This document shows, in pieces, positions 14,102 through 49,146 of a DNA stretch of 64,000 nucleotides. The number at the start of each line of letters is the position of its first letter. Positions within the stretch are counted from its first letter, which is position 1. Both the position numbers and the translations under genes were made by a program. Source of the stretch: Clytia hemisphaerica (taxonomy: Eukaryota; Cnidaria; Hydrozoa; Leptothecata; Clytiidae); assembly GCA_902728285.1 (NCBI GenBank), contig CACVBU010000262.1, forward strand, positions 657,588-721,587, read 5' to 3'. The notes under the pieces are model-generated. The model saw nothing but the letters and a program-made list of their open reading frames with translations, was not told where the DNA came from and did no database searches.

Positions 14102-17100
14102 ATGCCTCAAGTCAAAGTCAACTTTGGAGCTAAACTCAACTCAACCAAAAAGACCTTCCCTCCAGAGAAGAAAGCACCTGTCTCTACAGGAGCTAAAGGA
14201 AAAGTCAATCCATTCTTGAAAAATGACGCAGCGAAGAAGGCCCCTACTCCCGCCCCCGCCCCTGCTGCACCAAAAGAAGAGCCAAAACCAGCCGCCCCAG
14301 CTCCAGCTCCAGCAGCACCCAAGGAAGAACCAAAACCCGCCCCACAACAGGTGAAAGTCAGCGTCGGAGGCAACAAAGAAGTTAAAGTTCAAGTCGCCGC
14401 CCCGAAGGAAGTCGCCGCCCCAAAGAAACCCACAGGAAGTAAGTGATATATTTGTTATATGTTGTTGTTGCTATTAATATTGTTGTTTCATCACCCAAAC
14501 TTCTGTTCGCTTTTGAAATTTTATAATTTTCATAACTTTATAATAAGTCTAGTATAGAAAGTAGAAGTAGAGTATTTTCAAAGATGATTTTTCTGAGTCA
14601 GGGATAAACTTTTCATGTCCTTCTTATTTTGATAGTTATTAAAGAACGTCCAAAATTTCCGAAGCCTTTCTTAACTTTTTGACTTTAAATTGTGAAAATG
14701 TTCTTAAAATGTTCTTATTTGGACCATTTTGTGAGCACTTAGGGCAATTTTCTAACAAATTTGAAATGTTCTTATCTTGTTTTGGTCATCAAAGACTTAA
14801 TGTGCTTTTAAAAACCTGTATTGAAATAATGAGTAGAAAGTTTTGAAAGTAAGCGTAACTTTTAGAAAAATTTTCAGATACTGTTTTACTATCACATTTT
14901 CTAATTTTCAAGATCTTATAACATCAGTAAAAACTTTGATTTACATTTGACAAGTTTTACCATAAAGCCGTGAAATATTTTCCTGTTACATTTGAAAAAT
15001 TGCTCCTCCTACTTTTGGCAGAAATCTTTTAAACCGATTGAAAAAAATTCCAAGGAAAAGCTCAGCCTTCGAAGTCTGGTGCTGCAAATTGTTAACCCAA
15101 AAACTGATCTTATGAACAGAGCTAACGGCGTGGTCATAAGTTAACCAATCAATCAAAGTACATCAAAAATATATATATGGCTTTGCACAATCATCTGAAG
15201 TATTTTGCAGAATGCTCATATTTTACAGAACTTAAGTAAACGTTGCAAAGAGAGTAAGCTATAAAACTGTTAACCCACTAAGAGCACTAAAAGACAATAT
15301 ACAGAGGAGATTAAGCGATTTTGAATTGTGAAAATACTCAGTAGAGTGTCATGATTTTCAAATATGCGAAACTAAGGTCATCAAATTAAAGGTTGACATT
15401 GAAATTAAAAAAATATATACATTTCTACTTTGAAACACCCGCTGGGACCCCGGCCCCACTGGAAAATTTGGCAAGAATTTTGTCAAGAAGGTTTTATAAC
15501 AGAAAACACGGTTCTGGTTTTTATCCTAGAACTCAGAAAAGGTTCTCCTTATGATTCCAAAGAAAAAGAATCATAAAAAACTACTGATACAAGCATATCG
15601 GTTACACAAACACGAAATAGAAAAAATTCGCTTCCAATGTTCAAATTTGGCCACAGTTGGATACACAAATCACCGCGAAATTGAATTCTCGAATAAGCTA
15701 CCGCAGCGAATTTTCATAAATTTTCTCACTCTGTTTGAAACGGAAATACAGAAACTTCCCATCGCATGGGACCTGTGATGGGATAAATTGAAAAACATTC
15801 GGAAATGTTGACAACCAAATCAGAAGTATTAGAAGGCTTAAGTGGCAGGAGTTGAAAATAGTCACTTCCACAGATTCATTCATCCATTCATCATTCAAAA
15901 AAGCAAAAATAAATTCCACTTCCAGATCTTTGAAAGTAATTCACCGTAAAGTTTCAAAATTTCACTGAAAGCTATTTGAAAATATAGACTCCCCGACCAA
16001 GACCTTGAGCCTCGAACGATTCATTCTGAAAGTAAGAAGTTTAGAACGTGACTTACATTGGTCCAGTCAGGCTATACACACACGTTTCTTTTTTACAAGG
16101 AATCTTAACTTGGCTCCGAACGTGGAGTTCCTTTAGCCGCTAATATTGGATCTGCTAAGTAACAATGAACCACAGTACAGAAAAAAACGTTTGAATGTTG
16201 TTTCGTCAATACTTTGTCATCTTTTTGTTTAGGCTTTTGTCAATGTGTGCAAGTTCAACTTTAACTCTCTGTTCCTTAACTTTTCTTATTCTCGGCCTGT
16301 GCAGTTCCTTAACGATTCCTTATTTTTCAGACCATTTTCAGCCTCAATTACCTTAAAAACGTGTTACTTATAAAAAAAGGTGTACAACTTCAGAATCTAT
16401 AAACTCTATCTTAATTTGACTCACACCAGAGAAGGAGCCTCCTCCATAACTTGATAATTATACGAATTGTTCAAGTCCGGGAAAAAATCGCGAGTTCAAG
16501 AGGTTCTAGTTGGACAGGCTCAGCGCATGAACGCATAAACCTCTGCTTTTCGAAAATTAAATTAAATGTCCTTTATAAAAGTAGACTATAAAGAAAATAA
16601 CGCTTTGATGGCCAAAAGATTAAGATCAGATTAAGAACATTTTGAGGCTTTAAAGACACTAAAAGATCTAATTTCCTAGGGATACACCGTATTACTTCGA
16701 TTTTCTTTTGGATTTTAAGAAGAATGTTTATTCAATTATTATTGTATATCTACAATCCTGGCAAAAAGTAAATAGAATTTTACATATTCTAGGGTTTTTT
16801 TTCTTGTCATTTCACTCTCCCCCCTCCCTACAATGTTGAGAGTCATTTTGCAGTCTGTACAGTGAAATTCAACATTGTAGGGAGGTGGAGAAAGGGGGGA
16901 AGCTTCTAATTTTAACCAGGAAAAGAAAATTCCATTACTTTTTGCCAGTATTGTAAGTTTTCTTCATATTATACTTCCCTGTTATTGTCTGTTGCAAATA
17001 AACGCCCCTTTAGGTGGAGGTGTTTATTCGGAGGGGGGGGTCACGTTTATTGAAAAATTTTCCTTAAAGGATGGGCGTTTATTCCAAGGGGCGTTTAAAA

Positions 17101-20100
17101 GAACGGGGCGTTTATTCGAAGTAATATGGTACACAGAAATACTCACAAAATGGTGACAATAAGAACATTTTAAGAACATTTTTGGGCTTAAAACTCAAAG
17201 TTAAGAATATTGAAAGGCTTCAAACATTTTGGATATTCTTATGAAAAAAATATGTATGTTGTGACTTTCGATGAGTGCTTAGAGATATAGCACATACGTA
17301 ACAAATCGGAAAGAACAATCACGAATTGCAAAGAAAGCTGACATCTGTGGCTCATTACCCTTGATTGATGGCTCGTTTGAGATTAGTAGTTCGTTTTATG
17401 TTGTGACATCAAATCTGTGTTGGAAAGTTAAGTCACGCCATTCGAGAATGAAAACCCTATGGTATGTTGTATGGTAATTCAACTCAATGATTATTCTAGA
17501 ACTTTCCAACAAATTGAATACCTATTTCAAGTTTTACAAAAAAATAACACAACGACATATAGCCCTTTTAACGTTATAGTAAACAGTAATGGCGATGACA
17601 TTTACATGACCCTGTCAGCCTTTATAACTTTGTTTAAAGTTAAACAAGTCCACCACTGTAATCATTTTTCAAAGCATAAGTCATAGTCGAAGTTGAATCT
17701 TAGGAGAATTCTATTCTTGTTAGGGTGTGGTCGCAGCATATGGTTAATTTTCTTCTTCTACTGTGGCAGTCACGAGCACACACAGACAAATCAGGAAATT
17801 TAAAAGTTTGTAATGTGTTTAATGTGATACACCTCACAAAATCATCCATCAGAAAGATTAAAAATCACTTATTGAAAGTAGCGAGATTTGATCATTTATG
17901 AAAAGAGGGGAGAGAAAAAAAACTACTGTCAAGATTATACCCTAGTGCTTGCTACACCAAAATCCACGGCTTAAATTTTCTTTGCTTTAACACAAAAGCA
18001 CTGTTGGGCGACAATACAGCTCTATCAATCATCGTATACAGATGACATTTTTTCTCTATAATAAGCATTGAGAAGCAAATCATTGTCCATTTATTAAAGC
18101 TATTAAGCTCAAAATCGAAAATTGTTCCATATAGGGTCACTTTTTGGCTTTTTCCTTCAACAATAATGATGACTTTGCAATAATTTTTAGGCTAGAGTAT
18201 TGGGTATAGATTTTTGAAGCAACTGGGTAAAAAATATTCCCCAAATCAGTGAACAAATGGGGTGTTTTAGGGAACATGTTTGGTACAAATTTTAATCACT
18301 TAATAATTTCTTTTAAACATATCTCCAAAGTTTTTGCAAAAAGAGAGAGAGAGAGAAAGAATAAAAACTTTTGTTTATCATTTAGCTTTTTGTTATCCTA
18401 AAGAGCTTTTAATTATATGAAGAATGGGGCGAGTGATTTAATCGGTCACGCTTGATTGATGTTTAATTGTCATGCAGATTTGCAATGCTTCAATGTTTCT
18501 AGCACTGTCCAAAAGCTTCCATATCGAAAACAGGTCTGTTACCAGCCAGCTAGAGACAGAATTTTTTGCTAAAATTCAACTACAATTTTAACAACAGTGA
18601 CTGTTGGTTATATATAGTATACATCTGTTAACTTGGAAAGAACATTGATTACAAAATTTAGTAACTTTTCAAAGACATTAATCATTATGAATGAATCACG
18701 GAGAGATTTATATTTTATTGACATTTTTGAGGAGAGAATCCAATACATAGGAAATGTGTAAGTTTTTGTCCATTTCTTGTTATTTTAATTTGGTTTTTGT
18801 TGTTTGGTCTTTGTGGTTTCATTGATCGCCGAATTAGTGAGATTTAATGTTAGAAATCCAATCTGGATTTTGAGCTAAGGTTTGTAAAAGTCCTTTCTGT
18901 TTAAAGTCTGGCAAAGGTCTTAACTTGTCTGTTTGTAAAAAGTTTGATTTTGTCGAGGAAAATGTCTGTGGAACTTCACCAAAGTGATTTGTTGTGTGTT
19001 CCGATGGCCCAATTGGGTTTGAAAAAGAAGAAGCTGCTTGAGAACCGTATGGCCGAGTTTTTTCCTATAATACGAAATTTGTTTTCAATATCTTATAAAT
19101 TAATTAAACATATTCTTTGGTGTCAAGGGAAGGACGTGACCTTACATAAAACGTTAACAGCTTGAACTGTGACAATGATTTTTGGGTCTTTCCTCAATCT
19201 CAGCATATTGTCTCAGTTTTAAGTAAAATCTCATCTGTTATCAAATTCCTATTAACAAAGAGGTTTTGTCGGTTTGTCAGAAAAATAGTCTAATTACTCT
19301 TATAATGATGTGTTGGAAAAAGGTTGTTGACTAGGTACACGTTTTTTTTTTTATAAGAACGTCAAAAATTTTCGAAGCCTTCGGATGTTCTTAGTTTTTT
19401 GGATTTGAAGCCTAAAAATGTTCTTAAAATGTTCTTATTTTCTGCATTTTTTGAGCACTTTGATGTAATTTCTTAAGAAAAATGCATGTTTTTAGGTCTC
19501 CACAGCCTTAGAATGTTCTTAGAATGTTCTTAAATTTTTGGGCCTCGAAGCCTTATGTTCTTATATAGTTTGTTCTTATAAGAAAAAAAACGTGTAGATT
19601 AAGTTCTTTCTAACCTTTTCTTTTGTGCCAAACATCCAATCAATAAGTTAATTTGTGCAGGCATACAGGGTAATTAGCTTATACCATCGCTGTCCAACTT
19701 AAACTAATATAATGCAGCTAATTAAATCTTGTAATTATCTTTTCTTCTCTCTTAATCGGCTTGCACTTAATCCTGCTGAGGTTAAGAATGCTTTAAAAGT
19801 AAATCCGGGATTGATTAGCTAAAAAAAACTCCAAAAAAAGTGTTTGAAAAAGAATCTATTTTTTTTTGCTACTCTTCTTTATAGTTTTGCTTTACATAAA
19901 AGATGTGATTTTTACCTTGAAAATGTACTGAAATCAACATCCCGAATGATTAAACAAAAAAAGAGCGAAGAAGAACACATATTTTTTATTCAAAATAAAA
20001 CATATGGAACGGTCATATAACTACTTTCTTTGTAGCAAAGTTTTATCTTAAAATCGATAAAGAAATTGCAACACACCTCTTTTAAATAAAAAAGATTATT

Positions 20101-20422
20101 TGTCTAAACTTCAAGTTTCCAGTTGTCAGATTTTCTTACATAAAATTATTCATACACAAAAGGGTTATCAAGCTATCACTAAAAAGGGATTAACAAGAGT
20201 TTAATGTAAATACAAAAAGTTAATGTTCAATTTTCACATATGTACGAAATTCAATATCTGTACATTCTCAAAATTGATTACAATCCCCCTCAAACCTTTC
20301 AAAAATACACATAATATTGACAGACAGGGAGAGTTCAGTAGTAGGAATTCACAGAGAGGTAATAGTTTGTAGTTTTTTGTCGTTGAAATAACGAAAAGCC
20401 CAGTTGCTTACTAGATTTGCTA

Positions 20423-20458
<36 letters not shown>

Positions 20459-23400
20459 CCAGTCTGCTAGTTCAGAGTATATAGAAACACCGGAAATCAT
20501 TCCAATGCATTAGTAGATTATAAACATTGTCAAAATTCAGTCAAATGAGTCAAAAGATATCTGTTTATAATCGACACTGATCTCTTCCTCTTTAGAACCA
20601 CCCAAGTTTGTGGAGCCTTTGGATAGCAAGTTTGAGGTCGACGAAGGCAAGACATTGATTATCGATTGCGTTTGTGAAGGTTCACCCGAACCTGACGTTG
20701 ATTGGTATTTTCAAGGGAAAATTGTCAAAGATGAAGGGCGGTAAGCTAAAATTTCCACTTCTTTCCGTTGTGCGCAAAATGAACACTCTCTTGTTTGGCA
20801 CCCCATACGCCAAAGCGATTTGTTTTCATCATTCCCAGCTGGCAAATAACATTGTTTCAAAGTTCATCGTTTAACCTCATATGGACATTAGATGGACGTT
20901 AGATGGACTTTAAAACATTCTCTTTCTTATTTCCCGCAGATACAAATATTTCTTCGAGAAGGGAAATGTGATTGGTTTAGAAGTTGCCAAGGCAACACCA
21001 GCAGATGCTGGAGAATACAAATGTGTCTGTTTCAATGACAGTGGGAAAGAAGAAAGCAAAACTACCGTCTCTGTCAAAGGTTAGTTGAATGAAACTCCTG
21101 CATAGTCACACGTCTCTTGACAGATAAAATGCAGCAGATTCTCTATAACTCGAGCTCTTTATAAACTTAAATAGTTTGTCTGGTCACTTCAGTTAGTAAA
21201 CGAACCTTCCGAGAGATAGACCCAATTGTATTATGGTTTAGGGAGCCTACAAAGAACAAAGCAACCGGCGGATTCCTCTGTTTTTTCCCCCTGGGAACTG
21301 TTTCATTTCCTGATTAACGAATTTGAAGCATGGCAAATGACAAAATATATTTCTATGAAAAACCAAGTGAAGACTGAAGTAAGAATTCTAATTGACACAA
21401 TCATCAATTGATATGTTTTTTCACTTCACCAGCAAAACCAGCACCCGAACCAGCTAAGGAGCCAACTCCTGAACCATCTCCCGAACCTTCGCCTGAACCT
21501 GTCCGAAAAGTTGAACCAAAGAAACCTGCTCCCACAAAACCTGCTCCCACATCAGGTAACAATCCTTTGGACTCAAGTTAATTTATTTATCTTTGGGAAT
21601 TGCGACTTACTTTCATAATGGGATCAACCTAAAACAAATGCGTCGGCAGTTTATCTTTAACTTTTTGATACTCTAAAATTTTCTTCTTAAGTAAAAATGT
21701 GTAAGAAACTAAATCCTTAAAATACTGTGTTTCTTTGTATTTTAGAAACACTCAAAGCAAACACCTTTACACCAAAACGCAAAGACAAGAAAAAGAAACT
21801 GCCCATCGAGCGTGACGGAATTAAGCCGGAAAATCCTGAGAAATATTACGACTTTGGTGAAGAGATTGGACGAGGAAAATTTGCTGTCGTTAAATACGCA
21901 ACGAGCAAAAGCACTGGACAGAAATACGCTGCTAAGATTATCAAATTCGATTCTGACTCTTTGAAGTTCGCTATTCGTGAATATGATATGATGGCAGGTA
22001 AATTGGAAGGCAAAGGATTAGTGAAACTTCATGAAGCTTATTTGGTCAGGAAGTACCTCATCCTCATCATGGAACTGTAAGTTGACAGAAATCTTTTAAA
22101 AACTCCGTTTTACATTGTATTGTAAGAGTTTATTTCATGTTGACTAAAAGGTTGCAACAAAGGCTAATAAAGGTCAACGCTACTTGAGCTTAAAATTTGA
22201 ACATTTTTGGGTATTCTATTTGATTTTTGCAAGCCGAAGTGACGTCCTTTTACACGCGAGATGAAATTTTGATCAGTGTTTTCAGCATAGAGACCCTTTA
22301 CCTTTGCTTTTAGATTTGGTTTTTATAGTTTTCCTATCTTTACCTGACTTCACATTTACTTTATAATTTCAGTGTTGATGGAAAGACGTTATTGGACAAG
22401 GTGGCTAGTATGCACGCGATCACCGAAGATGATGTTGCTACTTTCATTCGACAATTATTGGAAACTCTTCAAGATATGCACTCAAAAAATCTTGTTCATC
22501 TTGATCTTCGTGTAAGTGGGGCCTTAATAAACTTAAACATCGTACCATTTACTGGCGAAAATTACTGGTTTTTTATGTATAAGCGCGTCATTACTTGAGT
22601 GATTCTTATATTATTCCATCCACTAATTACCATTTTCACAACCATATACCGACTCGCGATTTTAGCTCTTATACAATTTCATTCTAACTTTGGATTTTTC
22701 CTGCTCTCCTCAAATTAGTTGCGACTGGAGTAATGGAATATCATATCAAGGTCATATCATTTTTGTTTTCTCTTAGCCGACCAACATTCGATTCGTAAGC
22801 GGACGTGATCTGGTGATCTTGGATTACAATAGTTGCCGTCACCTTGCCAACAAGAAAGCTGGAGCTGTCGTCGACGTTATTGGCGATACTGAATTCTGTG
22901 GTAAGCCTTATAAATCTATGGAAGCTAAGATTTAAGAACTGACATAGTTGTTTTCCAGTTGCTTTCAGCAAGGAAAATGATGGTTTAAAAAAATACAATC
23001 TAATGACAAAATTAGCTCGTCCTGACTTTTTTCCACTCTATCTATCCAAGAAATATTTTGTTGCTTTTTTCCAATTGATTTCAGCAAGGAATCTTAACAG
23101 CAGTGATAAAAAAGTATGGTTTCAGAAAACACTATCTAACGAAAGAGTTCGCTTGTCCTGACTTTTTTCCACTCTATCTAAGCAAAACATACTCTGTTTA
23201 TTTTCTAGTTATTTTTAACATCGATCAAAAATTAGTTCACAAAACACAATCAAACGAAAGAGATTAATCAGATATAATTTCTTATTATGCAGCACCGGAA
23301 ATGTTGAACTTCGATCCAGTATCTCCATGGTCTGATGTTTGGTCCATTGGTGTTTTGGCGTACATTTTACTGACCGGAATCTCACCATTCTTCTACGAAG

Positions 23401-24570
23401 ATGAGGACAAAGTTGTTTTGTGTGTACAAAAAGTCAAATACGAATTCTGCCCAGAGTTTGATGACGTTTCTGCGAACGCAAAAGATTTCATCAAAAAAAT
23501 CTTCAAAAGAGCACCTGAGTAAGATTTAGGTTTTTGAATCTGTTTGAATATTGCTTAGAATAACACAGGCTTTTGATTGTTTCACGCTAGCCAATAATCA
23601 ATAATTGATCAGGTTTTTCATGAACTGAACGGAGAGGAAACTCTGATTTATGAATATCTTGATATACATAATCCGTGAATCACAATTTTTAACCTAACAT
23701 TGGTATTTTTCATCCAACAGGTCCAGATTATCAGCTGCAGATGCTTTAAGTCATGAATGGCTCAGCGTAAGTTTCAATTAATCTCGTCTAAATACAAATC
23801 AAAAGTCAACACATACGTGATTCTTCACTTCGATTCTTTGCACATCAACCTGGTAACCCAATTTAAAGGCAGCCTTTACCATGGTGTTTCATTACAATCC
23901 AATCTCCTTATATCTCGAAAGAAGATTCCGAGTAAAGTGCTTCGCAGACCTCTATCGATAGTCGTTTTTCCGTTAGATGGTGAAAGAAGCCTAAGTGTTT
24001 TGAATACAACCCAGCTGGCACACAACGTTGTTCAACGTCAATTTAATGTTCATAACGTCCATTTAACGTTAGATGAACGTTGAAACAACGTTGTGTGTCA
24101 GCTGGGAAAGCTATTCTTTATTTCCTCTTCTTTTTTTCGCATCAATAGAAAGATTACGAAGCTCAACGAAAGAGGAATGTTTTGCGAATCCAAGATGTGC
24201 TGAGGGAAACTGATGAACGTCTTTACAGTGAGGTAAGAATGCCAACCCTATAGCGATTCTTTGCTCCTTCTCATCGGCATTGCAGGTCACTATCATAACC
24301 CCTAGGATACGATCTAGAGTTGCTCAAACCTGGCTATTTGCTTCTTCATTAGAGCAAAGGTTAAAGAAATAACAAACTCGTTGTTACTGAAACAAAAACT
24401 TAACTTCTTACATTTAACCAATGAGATGTCTTTGTTGTAACCATTACATCATATTTGACCAATAGGAAGAAGAGGAGTACGTCTGGGCATCATTAGTGTT
24501 CCGAACATTCGATGAAGAAGAATATGACTCTCCTGAAGAATCTGACGATGAAGAAGAAGAAGAGGTTTGA
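14102..24570 (+). CDS. Ig-domain titin/MLCK-like protein kinase (paralogue 1), 11 exons, 599 aa
   Basis: Exons joined by GT-AG sites with phase kept throughout: 14102-14438, 20596-20740, 20940-21079, 21433-21555, 21746-22076, 22373-22511, 22777-22900, 23293-23518, 23721-23766, 24149-24232, 24466-24570. Residues 1-112 are basic then Pro/Ala/Lys/Glu-rich with two APAPAAPKEEPKPA repeats. Residues 113-207 are an I-set Ig domain (C137, W149, DAGEYKC with C189). Residues 208-248 are a PEP-rich linker. Residues ~283-537 are a kinase domain of the titin/twitchin/obscurin/MLCK group: glycine loop IGRGKFAVV, beta-3 K312, catalytic loop HLDLRPTN (D403, N408), DYN instead of DFG (D421) and CAPE (447-449). 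A basic helix (about 543-554) and an acidic tail follow. Lys and both Asp are kept, so catalysis is possible but unproven. The likely role is cytoskeletal or contractile signalling. The 6.2-kb first intron may hide alternative starts. Confidence 0.9.
14636..14815. repeat. 'GTTCTTATAA' dispersed element, copy 2 (in intron 1 of paralogue 1)
   Basis: It contains AAAGAACGTCCAAAATTTCCG, AAATGTTCTTAAAATGTTCTTATT and GAGCACTT, matching the longer copy at 19336-19597 in order. Confidence 0.6.
16750..16957. mobile_element. Inverted-repeat element (TACAATCCTGGCAAAAAGTAA ends), in intron 1 of paralogue 1
   Basis: The ends TACAATCCTGGCAAAAAGTAA and TTACTTTTTGCCAGTATTGTA are inverted repeats. A second inner pair (CCCCTCCCTACAATGTTGA and TTCAACATTGTAGGGAGG) folds the middle. 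It is about 205 bp and non-coding. Confidence 0.75.
17000..17135. repeat. 'AAACGCCCC...GGGGCGTTTATTCGAAGTAATA' repeat, copy 1
   Basis: Repeated words GTTTATTC and GGGGCGTTTATTCGAAG end in GTAATATGGT. The same vocabulary in a compact form with ACCGTATTACTTCG and GAAGTATACGGT ends lies at 30234-30313. Confidence 0.5.
19336..19597. repeat. 'GTTCTTATAA' dispersed element, most complete copy
   Basis: It runs from CACGTTTTTTTTTTTATAAGAACGTC to GTTCTTATAAGAAAAAAAACGTG, so the ends are inverted repeats. The interior alternates AATGTTCTTA words with GAAGCCT. It is in intron 1 of paralogue 1. Confidence 0.65.
20423..20457. repeat. (CTGT)n microsatellite
   Basis: There are about eight perfect CTGT repeats, about 140 bp before the Ig-domain exon. 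Confidence 0.95.
20834..20935. mobile_element. Degenerate CCCAGCTGG MITE in intron 2 of paralogue 1
   Basis: TCCCAGCTGGCAAATAACATTGTT followed by GGACATTAGATGGACGTTAGATGG resembles the left part of the better copies at 24010-24106 and 32930-33027. The right terminal repeat is not visible. Confidence 0.4.
22948..23265. repeat. ~136-bp tandem repeat filling intron 7 of paralogue 1
   Basis: The phrase CCTGACTTTTTTCCACTCTAT recurs at about 23022 and 23158, preceded each time by TTTCAGCAAGGAA and followed by AACACAATC/AACGAAAG words. A third partial unit reaches 23265. Each unit carries a TTTCAG or TTTCTAG that could serve as a decoy 3' splice site. Confidence 0.7.
24010..24106. mobile_element. 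CCCAGCTGG palindromic MITE in intron 9 of paralogue 1
   Basis: The ends CCCAGCTGGCACACAACGTTG and ACGTTGTGTGTCAGCTGGG are inverted repeats; the interior is a string of AACGTT/AACGTC words. This short element type is widespread in animal genomes. Confidence 0.8.
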
Positions 24571-25690
24571 TACCTTCCGTATATCCTACCCAGGCTCCTT
24601 GTCGTGGTTTGTAGCCACACTTCCTACCACCTTCTCAAAGGGATTTTCAAAAAAGATATCTTGATGATAAGTGTTTTGCCACAAACGTGTCGCGGTTTGG
24701 GAGCTGCTGCCCAAATTTCTGAAAAAGGCGTCTCACGAAAATATCTTGATGATTTTAACGTTCGAAGATTTTGCCACAAACATATTTTTTCAAGGTGCAC
24801 TCTCTTATCCCCAGCTCTATATCTTTTCTTACTCAAAATGATGATGAGTTTGAAGAATCATACTCATGAAAAATCAACTTACGCCTCAATTTGTTTTCAT
24901 TAACTAAAATTATATCTTCTTCTTTTTAAAGTAAATCTTGCAAATGTCCAGCATCACTTTGTCAGTGGTGATAACAACGCACCTAGAAGAAAAACAAGGG
25001 ATGAGTTCAAAATACAACATCACTGCTCATGTTTCTTTTAATGTACAGCTTAATCAAATAAATAATTCTTTTTTGTATAATGCAACTTTTGTAACATTTT
25101 ATTATCTTTTTTTTTCTAAAGTAGTTAAACCCAAAATAATTTCCACCCCTAGATTATAGATGATTTATAAACAAAACTAATTAATAAGAGCCATCAGCTT
25201 ATAAGGAGCACCCTGCCAGCGCTCCTAAGGGTCAAGTTACCAAGGGGAGTCTGATTAGTATTTAAAACAAAGTTATTATTATATTTATGGCTATTTTTTT
25301 TCTTAGAGATTAGAAATACACTTTAGGGACGTGTCTTTATTTCTCCCCATCTCTCATTTGTATCATGATAAAGTCCTTAAAAAAAGTTTTTAAAAAGTCC
25401 CTACTTGTGTCAGCAATTCGGAGGAGCTTTTGAAAAGGAAAATCCTCAAAACTTGCTACGAGAAGGATAAAGTCATACCCCGTTCAAGAGATTAGCAAAG
25501 AAAACTGAATCGAGAATAATTTGCGATTTGCGAGGATGTTTCTTGATGTAAAAAATGCTCCACCAAGGTGTAGAGTCTGCATTTTTGTGCTTTTTGATCA
25601 AATATTAATCAGTTCTATTCCTTTTTATATTTCTACAGAACATACATAGAACACAATAAAATTATTCTGTCAAACAAACAAACAAACAAA
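24571..25690. other. Interval between kinase paralogues 1 and 2
   Basis: It probably holds the 3' UTR of paralogue 1 (AATAAA at about 25057-25062 is a candidate polyadenylation signal) and the promoter and 5' UTR of paralogue 2. A (CAAA)n tract at 25672-25690 runs directly into the start codon of paralogue 2. No other gene was recognised. Confidence 0.45.
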
Positions 25691-28600
25691 ATGGTTAAAT
25701 CAAAGTCCAAAATCCCAATCGATGTCAAACAATACCCGAACTTGAAAACTGAAAATCCAAGTTTACATTACGAGTTTGAAGAAGAAATTGGAAGGTAAGG
25801 AGAATTTCCCAATTGATCATTCAACTTCATTAGGGATGTTTAGTCTACACAATATACAGCTTAAGGCTCCTAGGCCTTACACGAGAACTTTTCCGCTTGA
25901 AGCGAAGGAGATACGACGTAGAGTACGTCTACTTCAACCATTTTGAAATGATTCTTTACGAAAATGTTTCCAAATTACCAAAAGCTTGGAAAGTTGCAAA
26001 GATAATTCAATCTGCAGAGTTTGGAATATTATATCATCAACCTCCAGAGATGATTATGGAAGCATTAGGATGTGGACCAGGAAAACCGTTGACCTTAATT
26101 TCTTTTTCAATTTTCAGCGGCAAATTCGCCATCGTCAAGAAATGTAAACACAAGAAAACTGGTCAAATATACGCAGCCAAGATCATTAGATACGATTCAG
26201 ACACTTTAAAGTTCGCTATTCGTGAATATGAAATGATGATGAAAGAAAATCATTCATTGGTCGGACGAAAAGGAACTGTCAAACTTCATGAAGCTTATTT
26301 GGTTAGGAAATACTTGATCCTGGTTATGGAACTGTAAGTTCTTGACCTATTGAATTACAAACTTTTTTCGCATGCCAATCTCTATATCACGATTTACAAA
26401 CTAGTGTAGACAAAAACACGATGGAGCATCCAATTATTCCTTCATACTATAGCAGGCCAGTTTTTTAACTTTATTTGACTCGTTTCAACTGACCTTATCA
26501 TTTTGGAGCTATATAAGATCATTTATCGCAAAGTACGTCCTGTTACATCTAGATAATGGTTTTTTACAAGTACAGTTGGCGCTCTCTAATTCGACCTTCA
26601 TTGGGCCAATTTTATTCGAATTAGAGAAAGATTCCAATTATAGAGAGTAATTTGAACCATTTTCCAGCTGAGCAGACTAGTATTTTAATTCGAATTACAG
26701 AAATATTCGAATTAGAGAGAATTGACTGTAGTTTATATTTCGGACGGATTATGATTTAAAGTTTTTTCATCAGTACCCCTCTTCCTATTCCAGTGTTGAT
26801 GGCAAGACGTTGTTGGATAAATTCGTTGGAATGCATTCACTAACTGAAGATGATGTTGCCCAAGTCATCAAACAATTATTAGAGTTTCTCGCTGATTGGC
26901 ATGTCAATAATTTGGTTCATCTTGATTTACGGGTAATTATCAGATGTTTTTTTCCCAAATTATTAATTATTGTGTTCTTGCAATATTCAAACAAATTTTG
27001 ACCTACCTTAGCGATCCTTTATACGCCGGTCATTTTAACATCGGCCCTTATTACGCCACGAGCCCAAAAATAACGCCAGTAAGGGCCGGCGTAAAAAGGG
27101 CCGATAAGGTATATATCTCAAAAATAACATTTGTACTCACAGAATAACGAAAAGGCAAATCACGTTTCCCATTCACTTTATTAAAGAAAGTTTGGTTGAA
27201 AATTATCTAATAAAGGTCCTCCCTTTTTTAAACGCTCCTCCTAAAAACTAAACAATTGATAAACGCATATATTGGGCGGAAAATCAATGTGATTGTATCA
27301 TTTTCTAGCCTACTAACATTCGATTTATCACTGGACGAGAGGTTCGAATCTTGGATTACAACAGTTGCAGACACATTCCCAACAAGAAAGCTGGAGCTGT
27401 CGTGGACGTCATCGGCGATACTGAATTCTGTGCACCAGAGATGTTGAACTTTGAACCTTGCATGCCTGGATCAGACACGTGGACAATTGGAGTATTGACC
27501 TACGTATTGTAAGTTGTTGGAAAGATATTTCAGAGTAACTTATTTCTTTATGTTTTCGATACGAAGTATAGTTTAAGGGAGTCTTCGTATGTTCTCAAAA
27601 TACATAAGAAAGCTTTGCGAACAATGAGAGGTTTTTTTAGGTTAAAACACAGCTAATTATTTAGCAAGTAATCCAACATTATACCATATATCCTTACGCA
27701 ATCGAATGTTTTCTTCCATAATGTTGGAAGTTGCTTAACTTAGACAAACTGAAAAATCTCTACTGTGAAACATGTTCATCCCGCGATATCAACATTTGAA
27801 AGCAAATTTCCCCCTTTTGTCTTTAGATTAAGTGGAATCTCACCTTTCTTCGACGAAGATGAAGACAAAGTCATCTTAAGCGTACAAAAAGTCAAATGGG
27901 AGTTCGACGGAATTGCTTTCGGTTCAATCACATCAGAAGCAAAAGATTTCATTAGGAAATTATTTGTGCGTGCACCTGAAAGCCGTCTCACCGCCGAAAA
28001 AGCTTTAGAACATCCATGGCTATCTGTAAGTGAAACTACTTTGGAATATAAACCGATTATCAATTCAACAGCAAATTTAACATAGTACAAATGGGGACTA
28101 TATCTAACAAATAGACTTTTAGCTCAAACTCCTCTATTATTTTTTGCTTCTCTCTTTTCGGAATAAAATTATTGTTTGTTAGAACAAGGAACTCTATTTA
28201 TTCAAGTTCCTTGGTTAGAATACCGTCTCCATTTTCCTGTAGAAAAACTATGAATCAGCACGAAAGAACTCTATCTTGAAAATTCAAGACGCTCTCCGTG
28301 AAACTGACGAACGGCTTTTCAGCGAGGTAAGAATTTTTTTTACTTAACTGTGATGATGATATACAGTAGTGTGATATCAGGAGGGGAGAGGAGGTGCAGA
28401 TTACAAACTTGGGGACGAGCTGGAGTTTTTATAAGATACTTCACTTGGTCATTTGAAGTGATAGAGATGACGCGTTCTTTAGAAAAAGTAACAAAATTGT
28501 TTTATTACTGGTTAACGACCAACCAAATCAAATAAGAGCTTGTAAAAACTCCAACTTATCCCCAAACTTGGTGTCCTTATCTTTTTGATTTCGCAAGATG

Positions 28601-28941
28601 CGCTTCTAATGAAAAACTTCCCTCGTTCACTTCGCTCGTGTTATTCGCCAAAGAGTCTGTCTCCCCAGTGTTGATGAAGGCGTTACACTACTGGATGTAG
28701 AATGATATTCAAAAAATGTCAGATAAAAATAGAACTCGACCATTCTTCAAATCATATCATTTTTGACCAAAAGTATTGTTTTCCTTTCTAACCAATAAAA
28801 TTCCCTCAATCTAAAGATTACATCATTTCTGACCAATAGGAAGAAGAGGAGTACATCTATGCATCCTGCGTGCTTCGAACTTTCGACGAAGAAGAATACG
28901 ACTCTCCTGAAGAATCCGATGATGAGGAAGAAGAAGAATAA
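25691..28941 (+). CDS. Titin/MLCK-like protein kinase (paralogue 2), 7 exons, 347 aa
   Basis: Exons: 25691-25794, 26118-26333, 26794-26932, 27309-27508, 27827-28025, 28243-28326, 28840-28941, all in phase. The protein is a short N-terminus, a kinase domain (~residues 26-286) and the shared C-tail. Key sites are the glycine loop IGSGKFAIV, K56, HLDLRPTN (D151, N156), DYN (D169) and CAPE (195-197). There is no Ig domain in it or detectable just upstream. The start ATG follows a (CAAA)n tract and is the first in frame with the conserved LxTENPSLHYEF block. Compared with its neighbours it has an extra intron at IG|SGKF and lacks those at C|APE and APE|SR. The acidic tail ends in a Glu run. It is probably kinase-only after loss of the Ig part, or derived from an internal start. 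Confidence 0.88.
26571..26730. mobile_element. Pogo-like MITE in intron 2 of paralogue 2
   Basis: The ends TACAGTTGGCGCTCTCTAATTCGA and TTCGAATTAGAGAGAATTGACTGTA are inverted repeats with TA at both edges, typical of pogo/Tigger-type elements. Confidence 0.7.
27015..27110. repeat. Short GCC-rich fold-back tract in intron 3 of paralogue 2
   Basis: TACGCCGGTCATTTTAACATCGGCCCTTATTACGCC is followed by CCAGTAAGGGCCGGCGTAAAAAGGGCCGATAAGG. The two halves partly pair (ATCGGCCCTTA with TAAGGGCCG). Confidence 0.5.
28406..28572. mobile_element. Small inverted-repeat element (GAGCTGGAGTTTTTA ends), copy 2, in last intron of paralogue 2
   Basis: The ends CTTGGGGACGAGCTGGAGTTTTTA and GTAAAAACTCCAACTTATCCCCAA pair. 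The interior is close to the copy at 9640-9805. Confidence 0.75.
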
Positions 28942-29604: not shown

Positions 29605-29607
29605 CAC

Positions 29608-29985: not shown

Positions 29986-30233
29986 AAACACGCAATAAAT
30001 GTCTACTTGTCGGTAATCAGTTATTTATACCTGACTGAGTTTGTTCAAACCGATTAGAACCTAGGCCTGAGTATATCACAAAACAATATCTTTATAATAA
30101 TTTGAATAATTTAAATCGGCACTTAAATATTACCAATACAATGCAATGCAATCACTTCATGCACACACTTCAATACTAAGTACACCTCACTGAAAAGTAA
30201 GTATTTGAAGCATAAACAGTATTAATATCTATA

Positions 30234-30313
30234 CCGTATTACTTCGTGCCCCCTCTTTTAAACGCTCCCTCAAATAAACTCTAGAGTGGGGCATTTATTT
30301 GAAGTATACGGTA
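30234..30313. mobile_element. Short ACCGTATTACTTCG MITE
   Basis: The ends ACCGTATTACTTCG and GAAGTATACGGT are imperfect inverted repeats enclosing AAACGCTCCC/GGGGCATTTATTTG. It is the same vocabulary as 17000-17135. Confidence 0.6.
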
Positions 30314-32373
30314 ATATTACAGCACCATCTATATATTAGGTCACAAAAGCACAGCACAAAAAGTACACCCCTGTTACACTGTCACAACTTTCAGTCAAAT
30401 TGACCAGTTCTCCCAACAGAAAATAGTATTGAAAATCTTAGCCTTATTGTGGCAATCAGAATTTTTTTGGCTATTGCACTTAACGGAATTCAAAGTTTTC
30501 AAGCCGAATCAACAAGCTTTAAGAAGTTTGAGACTAGGGTGGGATATTTTGTATTGCAATCAACTTTTAAGACGTATTTTAGGAACAATTCCTTATGATC
30601 CATGACAAGACTTCCAGAAAAGATCTTTTTGAGGGCTAAATTGCACTAGATCTGACAGAACTTCTAATTCGAAAGGAGATTTTTGTTTACATCTAACGAT
30701 CTTAGTATAGTTTATTTCTAAGTGAACTCTCTCTTACTTTTTAAGGAACCAAATGCGACGTTCTCTTTCACATGCAAACAATTCCAATCCAAGTCTAAAT
30801 GAAAAGAAAAATGATGATCAAATTATTTAGGTGTACAAACTTTCACGAGCAGAAACATTTACTAGGTCGAAATCTCAAAATTTACTCCATAAATTTTCAT
30901 GAATTGGAGGAAAAATTATTTTTGTAAGCACAAACTATTGCGAATAATTAGATAAAAATAAGAATTTTTACAAATTGGCTCCAAAGTGACGTCTCTTTCT
31001 AGAATCCAACTAAAATAGTTAGTTCTTTTAAAACATACTTGAATTTTGATATTCATCATGATTTCGAAGACGTTTTCGAACGGAAAGAGGTCAAAGTCCG
31101 TCAAACGTCCCACGCGAGTTTCTGTTCGTAAAAGTTTGTACGCCTAAAATATCAGGAAACAAAGGTAGAGCAAGGATTGATTAAAATTGAGCGATTTTCA
31201 AGGTTGTTTGACCATTTATCAGGAATTTTAAAGGATTTTCCTAATTAAATTGACTGGACGACATCATACTTTAAGAAAGTCTAACCGACGGACTAAGGGA
31301 GAATATTTGCAGTATATCATTCTGAGTGATAGCGAAACATTTTTTAGGACTTGGCCTGACAAATTTCATTAATAAGCCAGGTTAAATAAAGTCATAGATT
31401 TTTGGCTGTTAATGATCTAACGATTTTGAAGGTATTTAAGACAACTGGCGGATTTAAGACAATAGAGCAACGCCACGTCGGAAACATGCGAAGGCGTGCA
31501 ACGCTCGTTAAAAGACAATAAAATTACAATTACAAATCTCTCCTTCTGATAAGTTCGACGTGGTCTAACCCGCCTATGAAGACATCCTGATCCCAAACCT
31601 GGTGATAAATGGAACTCGGAGATCCAAAATTTCATACTAAGAATAATCAAATTCACCAATACAAATTATTGGACATTTTCATAACATGTGTCAAGTTTCC
31701 TAATACAGTATGAAATAATCTTCTGACAAGACACCTGTTTCGATACAAAAGCCTCATTCAAGGTTGTTGTTGTAAGGGTGCGAAGGCTTTTAAGCATTTT
31801 CTTCCTTGGTACTAACTTTATTTATACCCAAGTAAGCATGACGGTAGGAAAATGCTTGATCTAATGAACCTTCCCGTCAATGTGACTCATATCAATTGGG
31901 TGAAATTGCTATTAAAGGATCTGATTAGCATTTTACAAAATTTCCAGAGGTTCAAAGAAAGTGCTCGATGTCTTTATTTGTTAAAGCTGTTATAGGAATA
32001 TGAAACTTTGTCCATTCAAGGTATCAGCCATGCTGATGATTCTGGACAAAAAGTAAAGATACACCAATCTCCGAGCAAAACTCTAGAGAAATCAATCAGA
32101 ATTTTCCTGGAATTTTTCTCCTGTCGACTTTTTCTTTCAGTTTGCGCAACAATTAATTTTATGGCGTGAGATCCTTTGTTTATCGATCTGATCAGCTTAG
32201 GTGCAGTGCACATAATCCTAATATGAATCCCAAAAAGGCCGAAAGTTCACGACGTTTCTTATATAGCATATCCCATTGTGTTCGTTCACTCTTTGGGTAG
32301 AACTGAGGAAAGTCATCTCATGGTTGATCTGTCTTGTTTTAGTGTTTCTTACTAAATAAAAAAATCAGCCACA
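30314..32373. other. Interval between kinase paralogues 2 and 3
   Basis: No gene or organised repeat was recognised. The promoter and 5' UTR of paralogue 3 should lie in its right part. Confidence 0.4.
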
Positions 32374-35300
32374 ATGAGCAAAAAAGGAACCAAATTGCCC
32401 ATCGACCGCCCAGGAATCAAGGCTGAAAACCCTGAGAAATATTATGAATTCGGTGACGAGATTGGAAGAGGAAAATTTGCTGTCGTTCAACAAGTCAAAT
32501 CGAAAACTGACGGAACCATGTTCGCTGCTAAAATCATCAAGTTCGACTCCGATTCTTTGAAATTCGCCATTCGTGAATATGATTTGATGGTTAGTGAGCA
32601 TTTCCCAAAAGTAGGAACCGTCAAATTACATGAAGCCTACCTCGTCAGAAAATACCTCATCCTTATCATGGACCTGTAAGTAATCCACACCTTTACTAGT
32701 CTACCATGCTAGACTCTACCATGTAGGCACAGTAGAAAATAAGTAAGAATTATTATGGAAGGGACAAATTGTAGCATTCATACAAACTGATATTATCACT
32801 TCACAATAATCGTACTATCATACTACTGCATTACACGAAATATAAACGACTCCAGTCTCATCATGATGAAATAGCCAGTCTGTAAACTCTATCATGGATA
32901 ATTATTTCGTAATTTTGGTCTTGTATTCTCCCAGATGGCACACAACGCCAAAACAACGTCCATGTGACATTCATAACGTCCAAATAACGTTATTTGAACG
33001 TTAAAAGCACGCTGTGTGCCAGCTGGGAGCTTGCATTGGGACTCATGTGTTTTTTAAAGATTTCAACATCAGATTGTTCTCAATTGTTCCCGAATTTTCA
33101 ATCACTTATATTCATTTGATCTTAGTGTTGATGGTAAAACGTTATTGGACAAAGTATCACACATGCATTCCATCACCGAGGATGACGTCGCAACCTTCAT
33201 TCGACAACTTTGTGAAATCTTAAAAGATTGGCATTCCAAAAATGTCGTCCATCTTGATTTACGGGTAAGGACAAAAATTAGTCCGAGTCACAAAAAAAAA
33301 TTGACACGAGTAGTATGGTGCCAATGAGGTTTGTTAATGAAAATCGGCCTGTTAAAAGCCATAGAATTGTCAATCACCCGAATTTATACAAGTTTTTTTG
33401 CATGGGATTCTTCCTGTGTCACCCGTCTGCAAAGGAGCTTAGTAAGAACCGTTAGTTTCGGGTTTCCATTTAGCAAAATATCTGTTTGTTCCCGGTGCAT
33501 GCAACTTGTTTAATGAAGACACATCCCTCTCATTGGAGTAACAGATTGGATCTAAAAGTGTTAAAACTTGTGTTATGAATAAGGAAATCAAAGGCCCAAA
33601 AAATACGAACAAGGGCTTACATAGCAAGTAATTTCAAGAACAATTTTTCCATTTCCAGCCCACCAACATTCGATTTGCAAACGCCCGTGACTTGAAGATT
33701 GTTGATTACAACAGTTGCCGACACATTCCCAACAAGAAAGCTGGAGCTGTCGTGGACGTCATCGGCGATACTGAATTCTGTGGTAGGTTTGATATTGATA
33801 ATTAGAACAGTTGATAAAGCCGTAAAAGTATTACTTAAAAAATTGACAATAAAAGCCTGTATGATATTAATATTATCTGCAGAGGAGAAAAAAAGGCTAA
33901 AACTTGTAGAATTTGAACCAAATTGTGCTTGTTGAAAAGATATTCAAGAGTGCAGGAATATTACCAAATAGCAAAAGTTAAAAACATTTTGGGAAATTAA
34001 AATGAAAAAGTAAGAAGAAAAAAATCATCTTTTGCATTTTCTTCTATTTCATAATATTCCACTCCTTAGTATCTTTTCAACAAGCAAAAAATCCAATTTC
34101 TATAAAAAGTTACTGCCTATTTCTCTCCACTGAAGATTATTTGCATTGAAGCAATGTAAAGGATTATCAATATAAGATTGACAATGCTCGTAAAGCCAAT
34201 CATCCGAAACTTTGATACACAAATCGAGCCAAGGCAATTTAATAACACTGCTGTTCCATATTTTCTAGCCCCTGAAATGCTGCAATTCGAACCAGTCCTT
34301 CCAGGATCTGACATGTGGACTATAGGAGTACTCGCTTACTGCATGTAAGTACAAATCATTTTATATGAAAAACTGAAACCCTTCATCACACAAGTAAAAA
34401 AAAAACACGTTAAATATACGCCTTTTCGACCGTAGTCGCGGGGACATTTTTTTTGTCTGCTTTATCCCACTAATACCGTCCCAATCCTTTTTGACGCATT
34501 TTTCTATTGTCTATTGGTGCGAAAAAAAGGACGGTTTTAGTGGGATAAAGCGGACAAAAAATGCCCGCGCGGTAATTGGTGGCTACGGTCGAAAAGGTGT
34601 ATTGTCCTCCAAAGGATCGACTACTTTCTCTTTCAACCATTACGAAGCAAAGAAAAAGAGAGACTGATTTGAAAATATTTTACCAAAAAAACTGGCGACT
34701 AAACGAGCATGATATATTTTGACAATCAGCTCTTTAATAAGGAGTTTTGGATTAAGAAGAAGGTGCCCAGAAACAGGCCTTAACAAGTACTCAAGAATAG
34801 TGCACAAAATGTCCGCCTTTTAAAGGTTTTGTTGGAACTGGGTTGGAAACTTTGTTCACTATTCTAGAGTACCTGTTGATTGGAAAGATCACTGTGCGAA
34901 AAAGGAGGGACAGCAAAATACAACTCATTCACACTTCAGACAATATAAACTTATTTTGATTTTCCTTTATGAAAGAATAGTATAGACCAAGTTGCATAAC
35001 ATTATGAAATTCGAACGTTTGATTCCATGAAGGCAGATCTATAGTATTATAAAGCCCGAAGGGCTAGATGTCGTGCTTTAAGCCATCGCGGGCAAAAAAA
35101 AGTGAATATCGGAAAAAATATTGTTGCTATTGTTTTTGAAATCCCGCGAAGCTTCAATCAGAAAGGTCAAGCGCTGAAAGTCTATTGTAATGTGACTAGG
35201 ATTTCCTACCTAAAACCATGACACACCTTTCAGCAAAAGTACATCATCTAGCCCTTCGGGCTTTATAAATCTATGGACAGATCTAAAAAAACTTCTATTG

Positions 35301-36934
35301 ATTGAATTATAGGTTATCTGGAATTTCACCTTTCTTCTACGAAGACGAAGATAAAGTCGTCAAATGTGTACAAAAAGTCAAGTGGCAATTCGACGAAAGC
35401 GCATTCGCTGAGATCACAGCAGAAGCTAAAGATTTCATTAAAAAACTCTTCGTGAGGGCGCCAGAGTAAGTAGACATCTAATCCTTAACACCAACAAGTC
35501 AGACTAAGCTTAATGATATCCTACTCACGATTATCTTTCCAACGAGCACAAAATCACAATCTAAAACAAACTCTGTCAAAAGTTATTTTGAAAAGTACTA
35601 AAATTTCTGAATCTGGTTTATTTCCATTATCCAGAGCACTTTTTCTTATCTCGCCCCAGTCTGTGAACAAAATAATTTCCACTTGTGCCTTTTCAAATAA
35701 GTGACAATAAACTGTAATGTTTCGCTCAGTTTTTCCAAAGGAAACGAGTGTTAACATACAGAGAGTATTAACCTTTCAAATCACCTTCTCCTCCTTTAGA
35801 TCAAGAATGACTGCATCTGCAGCTTTAGAACACAAATGGCTTTCGGTAAGAGTGATGACCTTCTTTATTTTCTTTTTTTTGTTTCCTCACAAAGTGGATT
35901 CAAATGAAAAACATTTTTACCAAGCAGATCAAAGCCAAAAGAAACAAATGTGCGAACTTTCAGTAAAACTAAACCATGTCTTCCTATTTACAGTGAAATA
36001 AATAGAATCACAAAGTGCTCAAGAAAATTCGAACAAATTCGAGCGAAATATCGAGAAAAAAGAAATAACTTACGATTGCTACGCGGTGTTTCATGCTTTC
36101 AATTCATGATATTCATGACATAATATTTTCTACGGAAGGACCCGGGTTTTTGCCAGTGGTAGCAAATTTTATAGAACCTTTTTCTAGTTCAAATTTACCA
36201 CTACTGGCTAAAACCGGGGTATTTCCGTAGAAAACATTACGTCATGAATATCATGAATTATTGAAATAAAAACTACAATACACTGCATAACCTGAAGATT
36301 GCACCAGCATCAAACACCGTGTAGCGATTGTAAACTAGTTCTTTATTTCTCTTCCTATTTATAATTTTCATTAACAGAGTGATTACGCAGCTATGCGCAA
36401 GAAAACCACCATCGGCGCTCAAGATGTCATGGTAGAAACTGACGAACGATTATACTCTGAGGTAAGTGACCTTTCAGTATTAAGGAGATAACAAATAAAG
36501 GAGATAAATTCAAAAGGACGCAATCTAATTTAGCACGATGACACTTCTTTTAGGTTTTTCATTGCATGACAAATTAGTCATTATCGGGGTGGAAATGTAG
36601 TACAAACTGGGGAAGCAGCTTTCCAAATAGTCATTTTAGGGCCACATTGTCCTATATATCCTTGAATAACTTATCTTATATATCCTTAAAAGGCCTTGAA
36701 TAGATCCTTAAATATCTTGGACTAATTACACAAGCGGAGAACCTCCCACCTACATACCTACCTTATTGTATTGATCATTTTTAACCAATGAGATGTCTCT
36801 ATTGTAACCATTACATCATTTCTGGCCAATAGGAAGAAGAGGAGTACATTTGGCCATCATGCGTCTTCAGAACATTCGAAGAGGATGAATACGATTCTCC
36901 TGAAAGCGAAGAAGATGAAGAAGAAGAAGAATAA
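32374..36934 (+). CDS. Titin/MLCK-like protein kinase (paralogue 3), 8 exons, 341 aa
   Basis: Exons: 32374-32675, 33126-33264, 33659-33782, 34269-34344, 35313-35465, 35800-35845, 36378-36461, 36833-36934, all in phase. Residues ~22-280 form the kinase domain: IGRGKFAVV loop, K53, HLDLRPTN (D145, N150), DYN (D163) and an APE triplet. A short N-terminus (MSKKGTKLPIDRPGIKAENP) aligns with the linker before the kinase of paralogue 1, so the Ig and Pro-rich part is missing rather than replaced. The regulatory segment ends METDERLYSE-like (VETDERLYSE) and the acidic tail ends in five Glu. It shares the intron at the C|APE site with paralogue 1 and the one inside Y(C/V)|xLSG with paralogue 2. Confidence 0.9.
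32930..33027. mobile_element. CCCAG(A/C)TGG palindromic MITE in intron 1 of paralogue 3
   Basis: CCCAGATGGCACACAACGCC and GCTGTGTGCCAGCTGGG form the ends, with AACGTC/AACGTT words inside. It is the same family as 24010-24106. Confidence 0.8.
34416..34602. mobile_element. 'CCTTTTCGACCGTAG' inverted-repeat element, copy 1 (intron 4 of paralogue 3)
   Basis: The ends ATACGCCTTTTCGACCGTAG and CTACGGTCGAAAAGGTGTAT pair. The arms continue with GTCTGCTTTATCCCACTAAT and its complement around a TTTTCTATTGTCTATTGGTGC centre. A second copy lies at 62998-63184. Confidence 0.85.
35047..35267. mobile_element. 'TATAAAGCCCGAAGGGCTAG' inverted-repeat element (intron 4 of paralogue 3)
   Basis: The ends TATAAAGCCCGAAGGGCTAGATG and CATCTAGCCCTTCGGGCTTTATA are perfect inverted repeats. 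GCCCGAAGGGC is itself a palindrome. The element is about 220 bp. Confidence 0.85.
36070..36333. mobile_element. Nested inverted repeat in intron 6 of paralogue 3
   Basis: The outer pair is TTACGATTGCTACGCGGTGTTT and AAACACCGTGTAGCGATTGTAA. The inner pair is ATTCATGATATTCATGAC...TTTTCTACGGAAGGACCCGG and CCGGGGTATTTCCGTAGAAAA...GTCATGAATATCATGAAT. The two nested stems would fold most of the ~264 bp. Confidence 0.85.
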
Positions 36935-43088: not shown

Positions 43089-43126
43089 TCGGTCCCTTAA
43101 AAAGTATAGAGGAAAAAGAACGGATA

Positions 43127-48853: not shown

Positions 48854-49146
48854 TTATATTTCTTTACACAACGCTCATCTGTAATAATAACAAAATTTAT
48901 GAAATATATTTTTTCTTATCTTTGAAATAATCATTAAGTAATTTTCTTTATCTTATATGCGCAGTCTCTTAGGGATGTGATAGCTGGGAGCTGACAGTTT
49001 TGACCATGAAAAAAGCTTAAAATTTGAAATAAATTATTATTTGATCATACGAAGAGAAAAAAGAGAAGCTGTTAAATTAACCTTGAACTTAATTTTAGTT
49101 ATCCTTGGCAGAGAAACCAAAACACATTCAAATACGAATCAACAAA

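Follow-up and report, generated by a model that had tools for sequence, protein, structure and literature searches.

Three tandem kinase genes with a DYN motif in Clytia hemisphaerica as apparent free-standing relatives of the obscurin-type PK2 domain

From which kinases do copies come whose DFG motif reads DYN, in what order did the motif change, and what could such an active site still do? These questions are raised by a locus of the hydrozoan Clytia hemisphaerica, where three kinase genes (genes 1-3, with kinase domains K1-K3) follow each other on contig CACVBU010000262.1 of assembly GCA_902728285.1. The stretch analyzed, hereafter the window, comprises 64,000 nucleotides (positions 657,588 to 721,587, forward strand); the coordinates of its kinase features are given in Table 1. 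A first-pass annotation made from the letters alone had described titin/MLCK-like kinases, perhaps of an atypical or scaffold type. Our results supported a different kinship, namely with the PK2 domain of an obscurin/UNC-89-type gene, of which genes 1-3 would be free-standing relatives multiplied by tandem duplication.

Gene models were joined by hand and by eye from the homology among the copies and from the DNA read around each motif. All three gave open frames, and the stretch 14102-36934 pointed out by the first-pass annotation was found to begin at the ATG of gene 1 and to end at the stop of gene 3. The copies were considered three separate genes, not one three-kinase protein, because in every one of them an in-frame stop precedes the ATG (by 21 nt in gene 1, at 25595 in gene 2 and at 32353 in gene 3) and the terminal exon carries a stop of its own. 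The catalytic loop HLDLR/PTN is split by a phase-0 intron in all of them. From N to C terminus, gene 1 comprises a P/A/K-rich start, one I-set immunoglobulin (Ig) domain, a P-rich linker, K1 (Pfam Pkinase, E 1e-49) and an acidic tail; further exons within its 6.2-kb first intron were judged from the list of open reading frames (ORFs) only. Genes 2 and 3 showed no Ig domain, the DNA between the genes likewise being judged from the ORF list only. The Ig of gene 1 is a generic I-set domain, and its best local match (28%, to the Ig preceding PK1 on contig C342, described below) pointed to no source. The acidic tails, each of 33-34 aa, are nearly identical among the three genes.

All three are CAMK-group kinases reading DYNSCRH at the DFG position and HLDLRPTN in the catalytic loop, and in a six-frame translation of the whole window DYNSC occurred exactly three times, always on the plus strand and at the DYN positions of Table 1. 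The beta-3 Lys, alpha-C Glu, catalytic Asp, loop Asn, DFG Asp and APE Glu are invariant in all three copies; in DAPK1 numbering, the kept residues include Lys42, Glu64, Asp139, Asn144 and Asp161. None of the copies has lost the beta-3 Lys, the HRD Asp or the DFG Asp, the Hanks residues whose loss marks a pseudokinase. The earlier description of three paralogues sharing both motifs with their catalytic residues kept agreed with all three open gene models.

The kinase domains are 71-75% identical to one another. Over 307-313 aligned codons (kinase plus tail), NG86 estimates for gene pairs 1-2, 1-3 and 2-3 gave nonsynonymous divergence (dN) of 0.24, 0.19 and 0.23, synonymous divergence (dS) of 1.39, 1.43 and 1.62, and dN/dS of 0.17, 0.13 and 0.14, ratios that are rough since dS is near saturation. 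Together with the invariant catalytic residues, they bore out the view of a constrained kinase group with an altered DFG in every copy. That the genes are unexpressed or decaying copies appeared extremely unlikely: neither AATAAA nor ATTAAA lies within 1 kb downstream of gene 2, which would suit decay, but the three complete frames, the GT-AG introns, the dN/dS of about 0.13-0.17 and the near-identical tails all speak against it.

The kinship of the three kinases was read mainly from trees. In a 13-row tree (the three window kinases, six other kinases of the same genome and four PDB chains), K1-K3 formed a clade (support 100/99) that joined the PK2 domain on contig C342 (100/99), apart from the PK1 of that contig, two MLCK-like, a Trio-like and a DAPK-like kinase, the twitchins, MYLK4 and DAPK1. 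The same grouping was recovered without the DYN exon (K1-K3, 100/98; with PK2, 100/100) and in a 23-row tree to which ten more high-scoring kinases of the genome had been added, four of them long-branched (100/99 and 100/100, respectively). The C-terminal tails told the same story, with 20 of 33 residues in K1, 18 of 33 in K2 and 16 of 33 in K3 identical to the PK2 tail. When the PK2 C-terminus was shuffled 10,000 times and the register left free, none of these three values was ever reached. The K1 and PK2 tails share the pattern V.ASLV.RTF....Y.SP.ES. In the kinase domain, K1-K3 and PK2 have F102L and F162Y in common, and E143 is altered in both, to T in K1-K3 and to S in PK2 (DAPK1 numbering). 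We infer that genes 1-3 descended from a PK2 inside an obscurin-type gene, not the reverse.

Several observations weigh against this kinship. First, the sole PK2 reference is the one on C342, from the same genome. Second, the way from WLS to the shared tail is longer in PK2, by 27 residues without a counterpart in genes 1-3. Third, when the 417-Mb assembly was searched with K3 (at least 69 matches, with 127 of 139 candidates scored; 16 on the window's contig, all of them exons of genes 1-3, and 53 elsewhere), the best E-value outside that contig belonged to an intronless kinase on contig C513 (3.2e-23, 29% identity in one piece), slightly ahead of the best single C342 exon (6.1e-22). Finally, a reverse search with the C342 PK2 (at least 93 matches, 124 of 201 candidates scored) returned the window exons at 34-49% identity, and with this query short exons of other relatives also reached 44-49%, whereas the C513 kinase and other intronless kinases outscored the window exons by E-value. 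The rank of C513 over C342 is explained by intron-containing genes being matched exon by exon; by identity to K3, C342 came first outside the window's contig among the matches listed (44-45%, then 41%), and the C513 kinase fell outside the group of window kinases and PK2 in the 23-row tree. The similarity lists alone did not settle the kinship, and it is the trees that appear to do so. Relatives were also sought in viral contigs (6 pattern stretches) and genome contigs (105 stretches), with none found, as expected for an animal muscle-type kinase.

The first-pass assignment to titin/MLCK-like kinases held as far as the CAMK group, the Ig in gene 1 and PDB matches to twitchin, MYLK4 and titin are concerned (with K1 as query, DAPK1 scored 177.5 bits, twitchin 167.7 and titin 136.3). 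As a proper placement it seemed highly unlikely, because the nearest relative in the genome is the obscurin-type PK2, the trees do not place K1-K3 with the MLCK-like kinases of the genome (31-38% identity) or with twitchin, CRD motifs are absent, each tail has a single basic residue, and no Ig was seen in two of the three genes. Titin and twitchin kinases belong to the DMT group of CAMK, and the DFG motif of titin is also altered, to EFG (PMC12862963); titin thereby changes the Asp, whereas K1-K3 change the Phe and the Gly. Titin kinase resembles K1-K3 in having Arg two residues after the catalytic Asp (D144, R146). A regulatory tail of the titin type (R-7x-R; [R/K]H[R/K]RYY in titin kinase; PMC12862963) was not found in the 33-34-aa tails, each of which has one Arg, nor was a basic, Trp-containing calmodulin-binding segment of the DAPK/MLCK type, since the Trp of K1 and K3 is not accompanied by a basic cluster. 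In search of the YD motif that marks the N-terminal linker of titin-like mechanosensory kinases, the residues a little ahead of the Gly loop were read as YYDF in K1, HYEF in K2 and YYEF in K3, in a tentative register.

The locus that carries the reference PK2 lies on the minus strand of C342 and reads, over about 43 kb, Ig, SH3, SH3, RhoGEF, PH, Ig, Ig, Fn3, Ig-PK1, Ig, Fn3, PK2 and stop. The two SH3 domains score about 25 bits each, and the RhoGEF match (624382-624606, 2e-10) is interrupted by two in-frame stops; an ORF after the PH domain that looked like a further SH3 had no match in Pfam. C342 agrees with the domain order described for obscurin/UNC-89, down to the Ig-FnIII pair that separates the two kinases (PMC10129394, in extract). 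C342 would therefore be an obscurin/UNC-89-type locus, putatively a single transcript, with PK2 as its last kinase. A cnidarian connectitin, with SEC14 and spectrin repeats (PMC12198301), was not supported as its identity: SH3 precedes RhoGEF in C342 as read up to 638,000, and of 55 spectrin-repeat matches (125 of 125 candidates scored) none lies on this contig. The PK1 of this locus (C342:598001-608000, minus strand) looks catalytically intact, with AAK, HLDLKPEN, DFG and GTPEF, as described in mammals and unlike invertebrate PK1, which is described as a pseudokinase.

None of genes 1-3 encodes a giant Ig/SH3/RhoGEF/PH protein with a PK1-PK2 tandem, and since they are stand-alone genes of 313 to 571 aa, they are relatives of the PK2 domain, not obscurins. 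They share with the C342 PK2 (apparently the "kinase-B" of the PMC12198301 extract) the Tyr of its DYG, the F102L change and the acidic tail; apart from being small separate genes, they differ from it in reading DYN for DYG, DLR for DIK and GDTEF for GTIEF. Single-kinase obscurins are already known from mammals, where they are likewise small one-kinase proteins but splice forms of one gene (PMC12812942); genes 1-3 are separate tandem genes. Neither separate tandem PK2 genes nor a DYN kinase motif was found by title in the open-licence literature, which proves little.

Intron positions gave some indication of the age of the split. A phase-2 intron at MEL/VDG is present in genes 1-3 and in the Trio-like and C531 kinases, and another phase-2 intron, at APE/SRL, in genes 1 and 3 and in the C531 and C556 kinases (gene 2 does not have it); both are absent from the C342 PK2. 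As genes 1-3 keep introns of the group that the C342 PK2 is without, the split from PK2 is probably old, and recent copying from the present C342 PK2 is disfavored. Retroposition as the origin of the copies was ruled out by the introns kept at sites common to other kinases of the group. Within the window, K2 and K3 paired in the trees (85/86 with 13 rows, 89/88 without the DYN exon and 96/89 with 23 rows), against which stands an N-lobe intron of K2 and the C342 PK2 that is missing in K1 and K3.

The first-pass annotation held that Phe and Gly had been changed in the same way in every copy, and this is true of the copies; the change itself appeared to have occurred in two steps. At the DFG position, nine of the 13 aligned rows read DFG, the C342 PK2 reads DYG and the three window kinases read DYN; two further relatives in the genome, C416 and C649, also have DFG, and the C735 exon covering this position was not located. 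Because Tyr is common to PK2 and the closest other kinases have DFG, Phe to Tyr came first and Gly to Asn later. The common ancestor of K1-K3 and PK2 thus probably had DYG, and, as judged from the alignment, Gly to Asn is the step particular to the window kinases among near relatives. A more distant kinase of the same genome (C63:394001-402000, minus strand) reads LIDFNLSRK, i.e., DFN, with DVCPEN in the catalytic loop, a second case of Gly to Asn.

The DYN motif is accompanied by other changes in the active site that the first-pass annotation had missed, a Lys to Arg in the catalytic loop and a Thr to Asp in the P+1 loop. Among 60 columns that are nearly invariant in ten other kinases, 42 are kept by all of K1-K3. 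Five departures are fixed in K1-K3 with PK2 at consensus, namely K141R, G163N, T180D, E224K and T225V, of which the first three lie in the catalytic core. Single kinases used as controls departed at 1/58 to 15/68 columns (PK2 at 14/67 and the Trio-like kinase at 15/68). The number of departures in K1-K3 is not extreme, whereas their location is notable.

It had also been proposed that the motif change preceded the duplication and was kept. This is likely, and is blurred by an identical run of 64 nt that genes 2 and 3, otherwise strongly diverged, share from the Arg codon after DYNSC onward. A run of this length was reached by none of 5000 codon-column shuffles, whereas the longest run in each of the other two gene pairs was 25 nt, a length that 911 and 1216 of 5000 shuffles attained. 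The DYN exon has a dS of 0.52-0.71, compared with 1.44-1.65 overall. Gene conversion, as the run suggests, or strong local constraint has contributed to the likeness of the activation segments. The three-way identity of the motif is not all recent conversion, because gene 1 differs at a synonymous site inside it, the Asn codon being AAT in gene 1 and AAC in genes 2 and 3.

What could these active sites do? In Ser/Thr kinases, the residues corresponding to T180 and K141 hold the catalytic Asp and the phosphate. We considered it the best reading, with a probability of roughly 0.58, that genes 1-3 encode PK2-derived kinases that may bind nucleotide, show little or no phosphotransfer and serve as partners in binding. 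The stem of the window kinases would have fixed DYN together with the Lys to Arg and Thr to Asp changes (DAPK1 K141 and T180). Nucleotide binding would be retained; phosphotransfer would be weak or absent because the Asn of DYN may stiffen the Mg-positioning loop and because the Arg and Asp may form a salt bridge at the site that, in Ser/Thr kinases, brings the substrate hydroxyl into line with the catalytic Asp. The proteins would then be small PK2 look-alikes that bind partners of PK2, such as PK1, via the kinase fold and the acidic tail. In the literature, the active sites of invertebrate PK2 are described as degenerated, with perhaps modest activity (PMC4042850, in extract), and PK1 and PK2 of the fly bind each other (PMC10129394). 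Human obscurin PK2 may be a pseudokinase, and a model of its active form needed one Asp changed, a residue whose place is taken by Gly in 73 of 83 catalytic CAMK kinases (PMC10401967).

This functional reading faces counter-evidence of its own. K1-K3 retain the beta-3 Lys, the HRD Asp and the DFG Asp, and Src has Arg two residues after the catalytic Asp. Haspin, with DYT and without the GT motif, is active (PMC3513839, PMC2845818, PMC4718504), LRRK2 has DYG and becomes more active with G2019S (PMC6660771), and invertebrate PK2 is described as probably or possibly active (PMC10129394, PMC7957886). Both haspin and LRRK2 share D-Y with K1-K3, and haspin and LRRK2 G2019S share the non-Gly third residue; they belong to other kinase families, and haspin is without APE. 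A scaffold-type role is what we infer here, and precedents for an altered DFG Gly appear to point both ways.

The same precedents bear on a tentative alternative, in which Gly was replaced in a DYG ancestor, the Mg loop was stiffened in the "in" state, and the products are free PK2 kinases that are constitutively active. G2019S in LRRK2 has been proposed to reduce loop flexibility and stabilize the ON state, and Y2018F is hyperactive as well (PMC6660771); haspin is active with DYT; the catalytic Asp, DFG Asp, Lys, Glu and Asn are retained in all three copies; and ILK, with DVK for DFG, is probably locked in by its missing Gly (PMC4718504, in extract). However, ILK is inactive despite its locked-in motif and, unlike K1-K3, has lost other catalytic residues, the DFD of MNK, whose kinase domain is CaMK-like, was seen in the out state (PMC3326643), and neither the P+1 Thr to Asp nor the Lys to Arg change is explained by a locked motif. 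More specifically, K1-K3 could be a natural threefold counterpart of LRRK2 G2019S, a PK2 that left the giant sarcomeric protein and combined DYN and the Arg/Asp pair into a locked Mg loop with a new substrate register; we regarded this as rather doubtful. Still less probable, and in our view unlikely, was a DYN-out kinase with conditional autoinhibition, where the Tyr sits in the ATP pocket and leaves it only upon release by a partner. MNK1/2 also have the DFG Gly replaced in a CaMK-like domain, although they keep the Phe that K1-K3 lack; the MNK2 structure is DFD-out, both in and out states occur once the last Asp is changed to Gly (PMC3326643), and in LRRK2 the hydroxyl of the Tyr works as a brake (PMC6660771). 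Against autoinhibition of this type, DMT kinases whose structures are known adopt the DFG-in state (PMC10129394, in extract).

If the kinship with PK2 is true, the terminal kinase of obscurin is carried in this genome as three small genes whose active site was rewritten in steps that can be ordered, from DFG through DYG to DYN. They would then be natural constructs for the action of PK2 without the giant protein and a natural series for the roles of Phe and Gly in the DFG motif, a matter that also concerns LRRK2 G2019S; they would test, in nature, how much change a kinase tolerates before it ceases to function. Attempts to obtain soluble fly PK2 from E. coli or Sf9 failed (PMC10129394), and the small relatives K1-K3 might be easier to produce.

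Table 1. Kinase genes of the window and their features (positions count from the first nucleotide of the window).
Feature	Position	Strand	Remarks
Gene 1 (kinase K1)	14102..24570	+	571 aa, 10 exons; frame open, every intron GT-AG and in phase
Gene 1 exons	14102-14438, 20596-20740, 20940-21079, 21433-21555, 21746-22076, 22373-22511, 22777-22900, 23293-23518, 23721-23766, 24466-24570	+	
Gene 1 I-set Ig (two exons)	20596..21079	+	Pfam E 1.6e-17
K1 DYN codons	22822..22830	+	GAT TAC AAT
K1 GDTEF	22882..22896	+	P+1 loop Thr to Asp
K1 acidic C-terminal tail exon	24466..24570	+	34 aa with 18 D/E, 1 R
Gene 2 (kinase K2 and acidic tail)	25691..28941	+	319 aa, 6 exons; open, GT-AG, in phase
Gene 2 exons	25691-25794, 26118-26333, 26794-26932, 27309-27508, 27827-28025, 28840-28941	+	
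K2 DYN codons	27354..27362	+	GAT TAC AAC
64-nt identical run, gene 2	27370-27433	+	coordinates by hand from motif positions
K2 GDTEF	27414..27428	+	P+1 loop Thr to Asp
K2 acidic tail exon	28840..28941	+	18 D/E, 1 R
Gene 3 (kinase K3 and acidic tail)	32374..36934	+	313 aa, 7 exons; open, GT-AG, in phase
Gene 3 exons	32374-32675, 33126-33264, 33659-33782, 34269-34344, 35313-35465, 35800-35845, 36833-36934	+	
K3 DYN codons	33704..33712	+	GAT TAC AAC
64-nt identical run, gene 3	33720-33782	+	final base in next exon; coordinates by hand from motif positions
K3 GDTEF	33764..33778	+	P+1 loop Thr to Asp
K3 acidic tail exon	36833..36934	+	18 D/E, 1 R

Rfam and tRNA scans of the window gave no matches. 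Downstream of the kinases, a block of about 3.2 kb at 48735-58307 (plus strand) is present in three tandem copies of 95-96% identity and contains an apparently intronless class C G protein-coupled receptor; the first copy, the only one scanned, matched 7tm_3 (1.3e-34), and the middle copy is split over two frames (52259-53218 and 53133-54800). Three further ORFs lie on the minus strand: one at 42705-43154 resembles a two-transmembrane SLATT domain (SLATT_fungal, 24.6 bits, just below the cut-off of 26.5), one at 60981-61592 belongs to the PMP22/claudin family (1.8e-13), and one at 63317-63730 matches the C-terminal CHDCT2 domain of a CHD-type chromatin remodeller (1.2e-19).

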